Assembly (NCBI GenBank): GCA_022822005.1 | Contig: JAJECO010000035.1 | Location: 1-64,000 of the forward strand | Origin: Candidatus Poribacteria bacterium | GTDB lineage: Bacteria; Poribacteria; WGA-4E; PCPOR2b | Reading direction: 5' to 3' | Length of the DNA stretch: 64,000 bases | Part shown: positions 54,280 to 64,000 of the stretch, in pieces | Numbering within the stretch: position 1 is the first letter of the stretch | Layout: each line of letters opens with the position of its first letter | Translations under genes and position numbers: made by a program | The notes under the pieces: model-generated | The model's input: the letters and a program-made list of their open reading frames with translations, nothing else | Told to the model about the DNA's origin: nothing | Database searches by the model: none

Positions 54280-55137
54280 CTAAACGCTGGCGAGAAGTAC
54301 ACGCTCAATATCAGCATAATCTTTGATAACTTCACAATGCTTATAGGCTGGCTGTGATTTAATCAGGTCTTGAACAGCGTGGCTCTGGTTGCAACCAATC
54401 TCTAAGATGAGTTTTCCGTCCGTATTCAAAAATTGTGGTGCGTCTGTTACAATACGCCGAATAATATCGAGTCCATCAGGTCCAGCAAAAAGCGCGATTT
54501 CCGGCTCGTGCTCTCGGACGTCTAGCGGAAGGATCGATGCCTCGCCTGTGCCCACGTAAGGCGGGTTAGAAGCAATCCAGTCAAAACGGGGGTTGGGTAG
54601 TTCGCGCAGGGGCTCAAAAAGATCGCCTTGTAGGAACGTGAGTTGATCTGCACAGTTGTGGGTGAGCGCATTCTGTTGAGCAACTTCTAAAGCTTCCGTT
54701 GACAAGTCGGTGGCAATCAGTTCCCAATCGGGCCGGTGATGACTAAAACTGATCGCGATGGCACCGCAACCTGTCCCGATCTCGACGAACCTGCATGAAT
54801 CCTTCTGATGTTGTAAGACCGTTTCAACTAAGGTTTCCGTTTCGGGGCGCGGAATTAGTACGCGCGAATCTACATAGAAATTTAAGGACATAAACTCCTT
54901 GTGGTTGGTGAGGTAACTCACGGGGGTATGGTCTACCCGCTTTTTGATTAACTCCCGAAATTTTGAAAGTGCTCCCTGGAAAACAGGCATCTCAAAGGAG
55001 AGATAGAGTTGCAAACGGCTCTTTTGCAGGAGGTGTCCAAGCAATAATTCCGCGTCTAAGCGCGGGGTGGGGATTTCGTGACGTTCAAAGTATTCCGTCG
55101 TCCACTCGATAAGGTCGATCACGTGCCAGGTTTTCAC
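54280..55137 (-). CDS. prmC: Release factor glutamine methyltransferase
   Basis: A 285-aa PrmC/HemK. It methylates the Gln of the GGQ motif in release factors. The N-terminal helical domain is followed by motif I (FVEIGTGCGAIAISF) and the signature NPPY (WIASNPPYVGTGE, about 187-199), which binds the Gln side chain. Its ATG overlaps the prfA stop by 4 nt, so it is coupled to its substrate's gene, as in many bacteria. Confidence 0.96.
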   Translation of the reverse strand: MKTWHVIDLIEWTTEYFERHEIPTPRLDAELLLGHLLQKSRLQLYLSFEMPVFQGALSKFRELIKKRVDHTPVSYLTNHKEFMSLNFYVDSRVLIPRPETETLVETVLQHQKDSCRFVEIGTGCGAIAISFSHHRPDWELIATDLSTEALEVAQQNALTHNCADQLTFLQGDLFEPLRELPNPRFDWIASNPPYVGTGEASILPLDVREHEPEIALFAGPDGLDIIRRIVTDAPQFLNTDGKLILEIGCNQSHAVQDLIKSQPAYKHCEVIKDYADIERVLLASV

Positions 55138-56204
55138 GACGATAGGTTCTTTAATTGCTCCGCTTGGTCAGCGTCTATCAAGGCATCAATGAAAGTATCA
55201 ATGTCTCCATTTAGAACTGCATCCAACTGATGAACGCTCAAACCGATACGATGGTCTGTCACCCGACTTTGGGGGAAGTTATAGGTGCGAATTTTTTCAC
55301 TTCGATCGCCGCTGCCAATCATGGATCTCCGCGTTTGCGCGCGTTCGGCATCCTGTTCAGCTTGCATCTGCTCAAGCAGACGGGAACGCAAAATTTTCAT
55401 CGCCTTGGCTCTATTTTTGTGCTGAGATTTTTCATCTTGGCAGGATACTGTAAGGCCTGTAGGAATATATGTGATTCGGATCGCCGAATCGGTTGTATTG
55501 ACGCTCTGCCCACCCGGTCCCGATGAACGGAACGCTTCAATCCGCAAGTCTTCCGCGTCAATTTTGAGATCAACCTCTTCCGCTTCTGCTAATACGGCGA
55601 CCGTTACCGCTGATGTATGGATTCGACCGCTGGCTTCCGTTGTGGGAACGCGCTGCACACGGTGTGTACCACCCTCAAACTTTAGTCGACTGTATGCTCG
55701 GTTCCCGTTGATTGAAAAGATAATCTCTTTGAAGCCTTTCAAGCCGGTTGCGTTAGAGTTGAGAAGTTCTGTTTTCCAGCCTTTCTGATCAGCGTATCTT
55801 GAATACATCCGGAAAAGTTCGCCAGCAAATAAACTTGCTTCTTCACCCCCTGTTCCTGCTCGAACCTCGACAATCACATTCTTCTCATCATTCGCATCCT
55901 TGGGAATTAGCAAAATCTTCAGTTCTGCTTCTAAGTCGCCTTTCTGCTCGGTTAACGCGTCAAGTTCCTGCTTGGCAAAAGCGATAAACTCAGCATCGGT
56001 CTCTTGTTCGAGCAGGGCGGAGGTATCTTCAATCTCTTCTGCTGTTTTTTGGTACGTCGTATACTTTGACACAATCGGCGCAAGTTCCGCGTGCGACTTT
56101 GCAAGGTTTTGCAAATTTTGCTGATCAGCAATTTGCGTAGGATCGGCTAAACTTTTTTCTATTTCTAAATATTTTTCTTCTATTTCTTTTAACTTCTCAA
56201 GCAT
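55134..56204 (-). CDS. prfA: Peptide chain release factor 1
   Basis: A 356-aa RF1. It recognises UAA and UAG stop codons and triggers peptide release. The GGQ motif is in GPGGQSVNTTDS, and the codon-recognition tripeptide is of RF1 type, PxT (VPTTEASGRIHTS, where E. coli has VPATESQGRIHTS). The frame stays open to 56,573, but the family begins at MLEKLKEIEEK, so ATG 56204 is used. It lies 25 nt after the PhyH gene. Confidence 0.96.
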   Translation of the reverse strand: MLEKLKEIEEKYLEIEKSLADPTQIADQQNLQNLAKSHAELAPIVSKYTTYQKTAEEIEDTSALLEQETDAEFIAFAKQELDALTEQKGDLEAELKILLIPKDANDEKNVIVEVRAGTGGEEASLFAGELFRMYSRYADQKGWKTELLNSNATGLKGFKEIIFSINGNRAYSRLKFEGGTHRVQRVPTTEASGRIHTSAVTVAVLAEAEEVDLKIDAEDLRIEAFRSSGPGGQSVNTTDSAIRITYIPTGLTVSCQDEKSQHKNRAKAMKILRSRLLEQMQAEQDAERAQTRRSMIGSGDRSEKIRTYNFPQSRVTDHRIGLSVHQLDAVLNGDIDTFIDALIDADQAEQLKNLSS

Positions 56205-56229
56205 AGTTGGGGACCACTTTAGTTTAGTA

Positions 56230-57072
56230 TCAAGCGGGTGCTGATACTGCTCTGTCGGTAACGGTGAGATTTGGATTCTCCATACCGAGGCCGGCTTTGC
56301 GCTGTTTGCTCGATTCAACTCGTGCTCTTTCAGACCACGCCTCAAACTCAGGCGTCCAAGCGCTGTCGTGCAACGTAGCCCGCTTACGGTAGGGGACGTA
56401 GTTACCGAGGTGCCAGAGTGTGTTTCGGTACAGTGCAAAATCTCCCGCTTCCAGATGTAACTGGACCGCTCCGGGCATACTGCGACAGTATTCAAGGCAG
56501 ATCGGTTCTCGCTCTTCGGCAAGCTTGCCGTCAAGATCGACACCCGGTATAGGTCGATCTGGAAAACGTTCAATCTCCGCCGGTAAATCTCTTCTCAGAT
56601 GGCTACCCAAAACGAACCATGTCGAACTGTCTTCATACAAGGCACAGTTAATCTGATTAAAATGGTTGATGTCACCGAATACTTCATCCCACATTGAGAG
56701 CGGTAAGCCTGCGATGTTATCGCGCCAGTCTCGATGCCATGGCGTACAGTATGGCATATCCGCCGGTTCAAAAAGAATGCCAAAATGATTTCGATTGCCA
56801 TGCCGATGGCGCGGTGTCAGCACCGTGGCGATGGCATCAACCAATGATGGTAAGTTGGCGTAGTCAATAAAGGGCTGCTGATCAAGGTCGTAGTTTGCAA
56901 CGGGCTGGAGTCGCTGCACTTGAGGGCCACTTTGTTCACGGGCAATGATTTTCGCCTCGTCGCAGACCTTTCGCAGCTCCCGAATCAGTGATGGAGGAAG
57001 AATCTTTCGGAAAACTGTGTAACCTAGCATATGGTATTCTTCAATATGTTTATCAGATACTTGAAATCCCAT
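56230..57072 (-). CDS. Phytanoyl-CoA dioxygenase (PhyH) family protein
   Basis: A 280-aa Fe(II)/2-oxoglutarate dioxygenase. The HxD pair is TPWHRDWRDN (about 118-127) and the distal His is in NTLWHLGNYVP, followed by RKRATLHDSAW. It sits between rpmE and prfA, in a gene order (rho-rpmE-prfA-prmC) that is otherwise common, so it looks inserted. The substrate is unknown and need not relate to translation. There is no clear ribosome site before the ATG. Confidence 0.9.
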   Translation of the reverse strand: MGFQVSDKHIEEYHMLGYTVFRKILPPSLIRELRKVCDEAKIIAREQSGPQVQRLQPVANYDLDQQPFIDYANLPSLVDAIATVLTPRHRHGNRNHFGILFEPADMPYCTPWHRDWRDNIAGLPLSMWDEVFGDINHFNQINCALYEDSSTWFVLGSHLRRDLPAEIERFPDRPIPGVDLDGKLAEEREPICLEYCRSMPGAVQLHLEAGDFALYRNTLWHLGNYVPYRKRATLHDSAWTPEFEAWSERARVESSKQRKAGLGMENPNLTVTDRAVSAPA

Positions 57073-60713: not shown

Positions 60714-60916
60714 ATTGTCATTCTCCTTAACGTTGGTGTAGCTACTTTGGTTACGAATGATCAAGAAAACTCAAGCAAGTGACAGAGCGAGATATTAGAC
60801 AGCTAAACGATTTTCTCGCAGTATAGAGTGTGTAATTGGTCAATTGGCTCATTTTATAGATAACACATTGGTTGTCTAACCTTGCCAAGGTTTAAAACCT
60901 ACGCGAGGATTTGGGA
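60714..60916. other. Intergenic region with a perfect palindrome
   Basis: AACCTTGCCAAGGTT (60878-60892) is a 7-1-7 inverted repeat upstream of the ATPase unit and just past the stop of the coiled-coil gene. It may be an operator or a weak terminator stem; no T run follows. No other feature is seen. Confidence 0.4.
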
Positions 60917-61495
60917 TTACTTCAGAAAGAGGAATACCAACGTCGCAGCTTGAAGAACTAATAAACCTATTACCCCAATACTAAGACGGGAATTGCGTTT
61001 TGCAAGCCTGTCAATTCCGTTGAGAATTGTCTTGTCATTTTCAATGGAGTCTATTCCAAGTTTTTCAACTTCATCAAACCGCTCTTTGAATCTGACTTCA
61101 TCAACTCGGTCTAAGATTGTCTTGCCTGTGGTGAGTAATTCAATTGTACCACGGACAATGTTATTAGCTGATTCTTGAATTGTTTTCACACTATTTTTTG
61201 TGTCCTCAATTCCATTGAGAATGATCTTGTCGTTTTCAGCGGATTCTATTCCAAGTTTTTTAACTTCATCAAACCTCTCTTTGAATCGAACTTCACCAAC
61301 TTGGTCTAAGATTGTCTTGCCTGTGGCAAGTAATTCAGTTGTACCACGGACAATGTTATTAGCTGATTCTTGAATTGTTTTCGCGCTATTTTTTGCATCC
61401 TCAATTTGATCAACGGCGGGCTTGAGTTTGTTCAACTCTTCTAAAAGATTGTGAACCAACGTTTCTGTTTCTAAAAAATCAGAATTATCGGACAT
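60917..61495 (-). CDS. Tail-anchored coiled-coil protein with two 65-residue repeats
   Basis: A 192-aa protein. Residues about 31-95 and 96-160 are near-identical 65-residue repeats (core TIQESANNIVRGT, TGKTILDxV, RFKERFDEV), and a third copy begins before it is cut short. Heptad spacing suggests a coiled coil. One C-terminal transmembrane helix (IGVIGLLVLQAATLVFLFL) anchors it, with no signal peptide, so the coiled coil faces the cytoplasm. The ATG overlaps the RecQ stop by 11 nt, so the two are coupled. I know no family for it. Confidence 0.8.
   Translation of the reverse strand: MSDNSDFLETETLVHNLLEELNKLKPAVDQIEDAKNSAKTIQESANNIVRGTTELLATGKTILDQVGEVRFKERFDEVKKLGIESAENDKIILNGIEDTKNSVKTIQESANNIVRGTIELLTTGKTILDRVDEVRFKERFDEVEKLGIDSIENDKTILNGIDRLAKRNSRLSIGVIGLLVLQAATLVFLFLK
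61016..61405. repeat. Direct tandem duplication of 195 bp in the coiled-coil gene
   Basis: Units 61,016-61,210 and 61,211-61,405 are highly similar in DNA as well as protein (for example TCTATTCCAAGTTTTT at matching places), which points to a recent duplication. Confidence 0.85.
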
Positions 61496-64000
61496 TTTGA
61501 GCTCCCCCTAAAAATTGTTGATTGAAATTTTTAACGTCTTGAAGCATCCAATTCAACAGAATTTTTTCGGTATAGACAGGATTCATACGATATGTGGCGT
61601 GTGCAATTGTCCTCGTTCGCAATGCATTTAGGACAATTTCAGCAATATTCGCTTGAATCATCTCGAAATTTTGAATACTCTCAGACCACTGTTCAAATTT
61701 ACTCAAAAACTCCAAAGTAATCTCCTCTCGTCTAGAAATGGAGGGATCTGTGAGGTTTTGGAGACCTGAACGAATATCGCTGAGTGCTTGTTCAACTTCT
61801 TGATTTGGCAAGAGCAATCGGGCAAACCCGCTCAATAAATATAAGCCAGGATGGCTGGGAAAACTTTCTAAAGTTCGTCTGCAGCCCCCCAGAAGTTGAC
61901 GAGCACCATCTACCTCTCTCAGCAATGGTTGATCCAACTCATTATTGATATCCAATACATTCCACCATTCCTGCGGTTCAGTTCGTTTTGCCAGCTGCAA
62001 AAGCGGGTCTGTGAACGGCGATTTTTCAAGGTAGCTTAATAATGCTTCTCTGATCGTTTCGTCTGTGTGGCAAGTTCTGACAACTTCAGCCATCGTTTGG
62101 ATCGCTCTACGGCGTTTTTTTTCAATCTCCTCATATACAAAATCAATTAAGTAGCCTAAGCATTTTTCAATTAAGTTCCTACCTTTGTGTTGTTGAACTT
62201 GTTGATCGATTGCTGTTCGATCTTGAGTTTTATAACGGGCAATGTAGGATTGTAGTTGTGCAAGGCATTCATCTTCTGGTTTTTTAACAATTGTTACTTC
62301 AAATTGTTTGTATCTGAAATCTATTGTATAGTCCTGAACAACACCGATGATTGAAAGACGGTAGATAGCTTTTTCGCGCTTCATCTTTATTGAGTCATTG
62401 CGTCCAAATGGAATCTGTATTTCCTCGGACTGGTTAAGTTGCAATGCCTGATGATGAAGACAAGGGTAAATTGAATCCTCTAATAATTCAAAAATCGCCC
62501 GTTTTTCGGCTCTTGCGCCTTGAAAGCCTCCTTTATGAAACCACATCATTCGGTGAATATCGCCTTGCTGATCCCGAGATGGCTCCCGCAGTTGACCGAA
62601 CTCATCGATCCTGCGGTTCCTATCTAAAAATTGATCGGCGTTTGCTGCGCTATCGTCCGAAAAAATAATAGTACAAATCGAGTTTTTTCTGTCCCTACCA
62701 GCCCTTCCTGCTTCCTGATAAAATGCTTCCAGTGATTGTGGAATTCCATAATGAATTGTGTAACGAATGTTCGGTTTATCGATCCCCATTCCAAAGGCTT
62801 TAGTAGATACTAGAAGGGTAAATTCGTTTTTTTTGAATCTTTGCTGTACATTTCGTTTATGTTTGTTCCAACACAGTTCTCTGTCAGCGGGATTGAGGTC
62901 CGGCTCAAAGGTCTTCGGAACCGTACCGCTGTAAAATTCGACAGGAATATCGAGTTCATGAGATAGAAAAGTCCTCACATTCTCACCAAATGCTCCATTG
63001 ACATGAGGAACAAAGACAATGCCGGAATGTGTATGGTGTCCATTCGGTTCATAAAAGCTGTCCACATTCATCGAAAATTGATTGGGTACAACATTTAATA
63101 CGTCTAAGAGTTGCGATTGCTTTTGATTTGAGGGAGCCGTGTAAAGGCTAAATTGCAATTCTTTTCGATCAAATGTGCCCAGAGAAATCTTAGCTTCCTC
63201 GTCGCCAATTCCGATTTCTCTTTGAATATCTGTTAACACCGCGTAGGATGCCGTTCCAGTCAGAGCAACAATTGTCGGTGGGATATTGCGAAAACGACAA
63301 AAGGCTTGCACAGTGCTAGCTAAATTAAGGTACGAAGTTCGGAAATCGTGTCCCCATTCAGAAACACAGTGGGCTTCATCAATTACCACATAAGGTACTG
63401 AAAAAGCGGTGGTCATTCGACGTAGTTCCTCTCGGAAATTTTTAATCTGCAACCTTTCTGGAGCAATGAATATAATCTGAAACTCTCCGTTTCCCATTTG
63501 CCGAATAATCTTTTCTCGCTCCTTAGTTTCCTGTTCACTATTGATGAACGCGATTCGATCAATCCTATTTGCTTTCAGGTTTTCCGCTTGGTCAAACATT
63601 AACGAACGTAACGGGTCAATCACGAATGTTACCCCGGGTTGAAATAGCGCAGACAATTGATAACACAACGATTTACCAGCTCCTGTCGGAAGCAAACCAA
63701 TGACAGGCTTCTGTGCTAAGGAACGGGCCAAAATCTCAAATTGTCCTTTTCGGAAATCTTCTTTCCGAAAGATGTTCTGGAGGAAAAACCGGAGCGATTT
63801 TCGCTTGTGGTTAGCCATAGGATAAGCAATGGGTTCGCTAGGTTGAATCTGATTCTTACCTCTCGGTGTATGTGCAGAACGTATAGAAAAAGCTGTACCA
63901 CCAGAACCCAAAAGTCGATTATAGAAATCGGGTTCTGGTGTGGTAAACCCGTGACGCTGCAGCATGGAAATATCAATCAGTAGGTCGCCATCAAATGTCT
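61485..64000 (-). CDS. RecQ-like ATP-dependent DNA helicase, partial at right edge
   Basis: At least 838 residues; the frame stays open to the right edge, so the true start is outside. An ATG at 63965 exists but the preceding in-frame codons (TFDGDLLIDIS) look coding. Helicase motifs: RKGQFEIL (Q-motif-like), LLPTGAGKSLCYQ, VVIDEAHCVSEWGHDFR, VALTGTAS, FGMGIDKPNIR and YQEAGRAGRDR. The C-terminal 400 residues lack the RecQ zinc site and HRDC domain that I would expect and are of unknown fold. The next gene is coupled. It may belong to a defence or DNA-modification system; that is an inference. Confidence 0.88.
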   Translation of the reverse strand, partial: TFDGDLLIDISMLQRHGFTTPEPDFYNRLLGSGGTAFSIRSAHTPRGKNQIQPSEPIAYPMANHKRKSLRFFLQNIFRKEDFRKGQFEILARSLAQKPVIGLLPTGAGKSLCYQLSALFQPGVTFVIDPLRSLMFDQAENLKANRIDRIAFINSEQETKEREKIIRQMGNGEFQIIFIAPERLQIKNFREELRRMTTAFSVPYVVIDEAHCVSEWGHDFRTSYLNLASTVQAFCRFRNIPPTIVALTGTASYAVLTDIQREIGIGDEEAKISLGTFDRKELQFSLYTAPSNQKQSQLLDVLNVVPNQFSMNVDSFYEPNGHHTHSGIVFVPHVNGAFGENVRTFLSHELDIPVEFYSGTVPKTFEPDLNPADRELCWNKHKRNVQQRFKKNEFTLLVSTKAFGMGIDKPNIRYTIHYGIPQSLEAFYQEAGRAGRDRKNSICTIIFSDDSAANADQFLDRNRRIDEFGQLREPSRDQQGDIHRMMWFHKGGFQGARAEKRAIFELLEDSIYPCLHHQALQLNQSEEIQIPFGRNDSIKMKREKAIYRLSIIGVVQDYTIDFRYKQFEVTIVKKPEDECLAQLQSYIARYKTQDRTAIDQQVQQHKGRNLIEKCLGYLIDFVYEEIEKKRRRAIQTMAEVVRTCHTDETIREALLSYLEKSPFTDPLLQLAKRTEPQEWWNVLDINNELDQPLLREVDGARQLLGGCRRTLESFPSHPGLYLLSGFARLLLPNQEVEQALSDIRSGLQNLTDPSISRREEITLEFLSKFEQWSESIQNFEMIQANIAEIVLNALRTRTIAHATYRMNPVYTEKILLNWMLQDVKNFNQQFLGGAQNVR

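Follow-up and report, generated by a model that had tools for sequence, protein, structure and literature searches.

Several described systems are close counterparts of the locus analyzed here. In the Zorya defense system, the ZorAB membrane complex, which has long coiled coils, is combined with the helicase-nuclease ZorD. Hachiman is a two-gene defense system consisting of a nuclease and a DNA-sensing SF2 helicase (PMC12278908), while RqlH, of the RqlHI (PsyrTA) pair, is a protein of about 690 aa in which the helicase is followed by a C-terminal PRTase domain (PMC4670107). Our analysis of a window of 64,000 bases (bases 1-64000 of the 81,118-base contig JAJECO010000035.1) from a Candidatus Poribacteria bacterium points to a two-gene cassette that, judging from its sequence and that of its relatives, is probably an undescribed defense system. 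It is best read as a membrane-tethered nuclease-helicase that is related to RqlHI/PsyrTA, ShosTA and Hachiman and yet distinct from them (Table 1). A module combining a nuclease-RecQ protein with a tail-anchored partner was not found described in the open-license papers searched.

The larger gene runs off the window, as the initial annotation had pointed out, and continues for 1,189 bp to contig position 65189. In full it encodes a protein of 1,234 aa beginning with GTG, a predicted start codon that is conserved in the orthologous locus L040. The RecQ core of this protein (aa ~469-860) scored above the cut-off of the RecQ-family model TIGR00614 (272.7 bits compared to 219.8), and the RecQ-family SF2 motifs are intact. 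The usual RecQ C-terminal domains had been reported as lacking, and indeed no Pfam match to RQC, RecQ_Zn_bind or HRDC was obtained at E<=1; by comparison, two further RecQ-like proteins encoded in this genome do have RecQ_Zn_bind. Identity as a canonical RecQ was rejected on account of these absent domains and of the RecQ equivalog TIGR01389, whose cut-off the protein misses (294.6 of 640 bits). From aa 939 onwards no Pfam family was matched, and this C-terminal region, starting with EKAIYRLS, is conserved in all full-length relatives. Extra sequence had also been noticed before the helicase core, and it holds a DUF559/Vsr-like PD-(D/E)XK nuclease domain (Pfam, aa 183-248; 30.0 bits compared to a cut-off of 20.6, E 5e-7), which is encoded beyond the right end of the window (about contig 64446-64643). 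The candidate catalytic residues D189, E202, D204, H208, D217 and R220 are invariant across seven relatives, and the nuclease profile matches a solved endonuclease-like protein, 3hrl (E 4e-6); for the nuclease and linker, AlphaFold gave only a poor model from a single sequence (pLDDT 35). The segment connecting the nuclease to the helicase is conserved as well and contains the motifs ERDVPCA and LIDIS in the Poribacteria protein. From these domains and motifs, both nuclease and helicase activity are predicted for the large protein.

Table 1. Features of the nuclease-helicase cassette and its two genes (positions refer to the window unless marked as contig).
Feature	Position	Strand	Basis
Whole cassette, absent from sister genome G021	60784..64000, on to about contig 65398	.	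empty-site comparison, GC, dS
Nuclease-RecQ helicase gene, 3' part	61485..64000	-	ORF, Pfam DEAD, Helicase_C, DUF559, RecQ family
Walker A motif LLPTGAGKS (aa 499-507)	63669..63695	-	motif positions
DEAH box VIDEAHC and RecQ-type aromatic loop SEWGHDFR (aa 602-617)	63339..63386	-	motif positions
Helicase motif VI QEAGRAGRD (aa 825-833)	62691..62717	-	motif positions
C-terminal region from EKAIYRL (aa 939)	61485..62375	-	relatives' alignment
Partner gene, 192-aa tail-anchored coiled-coil protein	60917..61495	-	ORF, hydropathy, ortholog
195-bp in-frame tandem duplication, copy 1 (aa 31-95)	61211..61405	-	
195-bp in-frame tandem duplication, copy 2 (aa 96-160)	61016..61210	-	89.7% identical to first
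C-terminal transmembrane anchor (aa 173-191)	60923..60979	-	hydropathy; position kept in all relatives

The smaller gene overlaps the helicase gene by exactly the 11 nt counted in the initial annotation (61485 vs 61495), and its ortholog at L040 is 87% identical. The encoded partner is charged and probably helical and ends in a single transmembrane segment followed by one lysine; the hydropathy profile contains one strong hydrophobic segment, at the extreme C-terminus (aa 173-191), in agreement with the membrane-anchored coiled coil that had been proposed. Two 65-residue blocks of the partner are tandem copies. The 195-bp duplication recognized earlier is real, with 89.7% nucleotide identity between the copies in this genome (G000), although it is not recent as had been assumed, since the ortholog in another species (G020) shares it, with copies that are 87.7% identical. 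Because the two copies differ from each other as much as the orthologous copies of G000 and G020 do (90.3% and 89.7% identity), the duplication is older than the split of the two cassettes, and a species-specific recent event was rejected; more distant relatives do not carry the duplication. Zorya resembles the present pair in the idea of a coiled-coil membrane component acting with a helicase-nuclease. However, the partner described here is tail-anchored, spans the membrane only once and has no MotA/MotB-type domains, and the helicase belongs to another family. Weak ZorA matches were obtained only with the coiled coil of one relative.

The two genes occur alone in a cassette of about 4.6 kb, which has a GC content of 41% compared to 47% for the window. 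Homology to the sister genome G021, whose flanks are about 95% identical, extends up to 60783 and begins again at 65399. The flanking ABC ATPase and enolase-superfamily genes are present as neighbors in six genomes of the genus, four of which lack the cassette at this site and have the flanks about 400-560 bp apart, while in G000 and G020 the cassette lies between them. Between the latter two genomes dS, as calculated by the simple NG86 method, was 0.28 for the helicase and 0.32 for the partner, compared to 0.91-1.47 for seven of the eight flanking genes and 0.48 for the eighth, a HAD gene. Since the dS of the cassette is several-fold below that of most flanking genes, it was most likely transferred from one lineage to another once the species had separated, and its dN/dS values of about 0.3 and 0.2 indicate that its genes are under purifying selection. 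Within the phylum the family was found in 3 of 85 genomes, including one distant relative (about 33% identical) that is cut by a contig end. The HAD gene with the unusually low dS (0.48 vs about 1 in other flanking genes) is situated two genes from the cassette (L009:5615-6319 vs L040:5827-6537), hinting at a second recombination tract. The flanking ABC-transporter ATPase contains an in-frame stop within a stop-to-stop match in two genomes (G019:C46:6104-7153; G020:C37:28891-29901); in G020 the ORF is annotated to begin past this stop, which may lie before the true start.

The flanks of the cassette are housekeeping genes. An extension of the contig to the right had been suggested as a search for defense-type genes, and none was detected with Pfam and PADLOC over 16 kb, where the enolase-superfamily gene is accompanied by HAD, GFO/IDH and LRR-glycosidase genes. 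The last are part of five tandem paralogous secreted proteins of this sponge-symbiont bacterium (contig about 70348-80821; L009:9149-19622); the first of them combines leucine-rich repeats with a GHL15 glycosyl-hydrolase-like domain, and a dockerin-like C-terminus is common to all five. Elsewhere in the window, at 55134-56573, an ORF for peptide release factor 1 carries a long TTG-started extension that overlaps the upstream PhyH-like gene, and its real start is probably an internal ATG, as in L040:16840.

Full-length relatives of the large protein, with about 30-35% identity, were found on plasmids of Salinibacter ruber, Haliscomenobacter hydrossis, Rhodothermus marinus and several strains of E. 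coli, Klebsiella and Raoultella, and also on E. coli chromosomes. In every relative examined, the gene after that of the large protein encodes a small protein whose C-terminus carries a membrane anchor, and this gene order is common to five lineages (Poribacteria, Salinibacter, Rhodothermus, Haliscomenobacter and enterobacteria). Judged against shuffles that preserve the heptad pattern, the small proteins are similar between Poribacteria and Rhodothermus (z = 8.9), Salinibacter and Haliscomenobacter (z = 4.6), Haliscomenobacter and Klebsiella (z = 4.5) and others; the similarity of the Poribacteria-Klebsiella pair taken alone is not significant, and these two are linked via the other lineages. 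The enterobacterial partner adjoins the helicase on plasmids in eight of eight cases and was never found there without it. In E. coli the module is rare, being present in 7 of 5,426 genomes (three chromosomal and four plasmid copies, which are few and related). No relatives were found in virus and phage collections, with viral-contig scans that reach close relatives only.

Enterobacterial copies adjoin type I R-M, Mza, Hhe and PD-(D/E)XK genes, and the chromosomal islands carrying them have an integrase at their end. In Salinibacter the neighbors are a type I-like methyltransferase and an R subunit, in Haliscomenobacter a DISARM-type DrmA helicase and a DUF1998 gene, and in Rhodothermus a CARF-HEPN gene. 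The proximity of relatives to type I R-M, Mza, Hhe, DrmA and CARF-HEPN genes supports a role in defense, although the enterobacterial association with type I R-M is suggestive only, since such genes are common in enterobacterial islands. In contrast, no defense genes stand beside the cassette in this genome, which counts against such a role, as does the small number of independent lineages in the sample. The defense-like reading of the initial annotation is supported, although by the neighbors of relatives elsewhere and not by those of the Poribacteria locus itself. Of the two findings that the initial annotation would have taken together as a refutation, only the first was borne out, namely non-defense genes to the right, while the pair does occur near defense genes in other organisms. 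As a separate observation, L043:5590-8601, directly upstream of the Salinibacter nuclease-helicase, encodes a protein of 1,003 aa that weakly matches AAA/STAND-like NTPases and adjoins a GIY-YIG protein matching the PADLOC candidate PDC-S14.

With these points on both sides, we consider the chances evenly balanced that the two genes constitute a self-contained, horizontally spread module defending against foreign DNA, such as that of phages or plasmids. Besides the neighbors of relatives, the invariant nuclease residues, the intact RecQ motifs, the pairing kept in five lineages and the horizontal transfer of the two-gene cassette speak for it. Going by domains and topology, when foreign DNA enters or replicates, the large protein would load on any exposed or abnormal structures in it and would unwind and cut this DNA. 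The partner would oligomerize through its coiled coil, with the C-terminal anchor holding it in the inner membrane. By way of a guess from its topology, it might tether or gate the enzyme at the membrane, the entry point of phage or conjugating DNA, and this tethering would confine a potentially genotoxic enzyme. A broader proposal, to which we assign a probability a little short of even, is that of an undescribed phylum-spanning defense family in which a dedicated tail-anchored coiled coil tethers a fusion of Vsr-like nuclease and RecQ to the membrane, with a DprA/PRTase toxin-antitoxin layer added in some lineages.

This additional layer is evident in the enterobacteria, where a DprA gene matching ShosA (227 bits) precedes the helicase, and where the N-terminus of the helicase is extended by HAD and PRTase/ShosT-like segments, the ShosT match being weak (29.6 bits). 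A DprA-like gene next door is thus a likeness to RqlHI/PsyrTA confined to enterobacterial relatives, while the lack of the usual RecQ C-terminal domains is shared by the RqlHI helicase and ours, whose core is matched by the PADLOC PsyrT model (237.7 bits). In contrast to RqlHI, the nuclease domain precedes the helicase here, the Poribacteria locus has neither a PRTase domain nor a DprA neighbor, and the partner is a tail-anchored coiled coil, which goes unmentioned in the RqlHI paper, where the word 'transmembrane' does not appear (PMC4670107). Likewise, the PRTase toxin and DprA antitoxin of ShosTA are absent from the Poribacteria cassette, and ShosTA as modeled in PADLOC includes neither a helicase, a nuclease-helicase fusion nor a membrane partner. 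Hachiman is similar as a two-gene module with a nuclease and an SF2 helicase, and might be a functional analog, but its nuclease and helicase are separate proteins, while here they form one RecQ-type protein and the second gene encodes the membrane-anchored coiled coil. A PADLOC run on both proteins, which the initial annotation had recommended, gave matches to the helicase that include DpdF and PsyrT models; neither HamA nor HamB was among the 25 matches listed for the helicase or among those for the partner, and identity with Hachiman by sequence was rejected on this basis.

The main rival to defense by attack on foreign DNA is genotoxic abortive infection, in which a toxin-antitoxin-like module would release the nuclease-helicase as a genotoxin against the DNA of its own host when triggered, with the partner, and DprA in enterobacteria, serving as antitoxin or sensor. 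The host chromosome marks the difference between these readings, as the enzyme would spare it if directed at foreign DNA and attack it in abortive infection. The ShosA/PsyrA-like DprA gene and the fused ShosT-like PRTase segment of the enterobacterial relatives favor abortive infection, as do the findings that RqlH alone is genotoxic and is restrained by RqlI (PMC4670107) and that DprA-PRTase modules protect against phage (PMC9122126); in addition, two of the E. coli copies are interrupted by IS elements, which fits a costly gene. However, the toxicity of RqlH maps to its PRTase domain and not to the helicase (PMC4670107), and no PRTase domain was found in the large proteins of Poribacteria, Salinibacter, Haliscomenobacter and Rhodothermus. 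Since Poribacteria, Rhodothermus and Salinibacter lack both this domain and an adjacent DprA gene, the toxin and antitoxin parts of the RqlHI type are absent from these lineages, and we regard abortive infection as rather unlikely, though worth serious consideration.

RecQ-like proteins generally act in repair, and the RecQ core together with the occurrence of relatives on plasmids would also suit a DNA repair or recombination helper for stalled forks or breaks, positioned by its membrane-bound partner and carried by mobile elements to aid their own maintenance or transfer. This appears improbable in view of the patchy presence of the family in the genus and the phylum, its horizontal transfer and the defense-gene neighbors of its relatives, and the same genome has other RecQ-like proteins. 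The weakest reading, that the helicase is the DpdF of a 7-deazapurine (Dpd) DNA-modification/restriction cluster, had been raised by the initial annotation and draws on the RecQ-like core and on matches to several PADLOC models named DpdF (best 293 bits; PDLC02868 spans nuclease and core), but it is very improbable and Dpd membership was rejected, since the cut-off of the NCBIfam DpdF equivalog was missed by a wide margin (189.7 of 550 bits, with RecQ models scoring higher), the defining gene DpdA (NF041059) had no match in the G000 genome assembly, and other dpd genes were neither found within 16 kb to the right nor annotated near any relative examined. The model PDLC02868, labeled DpdF, also matches an enterobacterial protein (L048:7525-12198) with 374 bits over 19-1002 of 1078, and its label may mis-call the nuclease-RecQ family, at loci without dpd genes, as Dpd.

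If the defense reading of the two genes is true, they would represent a two-gene defense family in which both the nuclease and the motor are defined and which includes a membrane tether; the module is small enough, in its enterobacterial version, for immediate tests in laboratory E. coli. It would help to account for the recurrent joint occurrence of DprA-like proteins with RecQ-like helicases in defense, and would set the family apart from Dpd, where one widely used defense library appears to place it. Moreover, as an undescribed family it would link membrane nuclease-helicase defense, as in Zorya, with the DprA systems of the RqlHI/ShosTA type.
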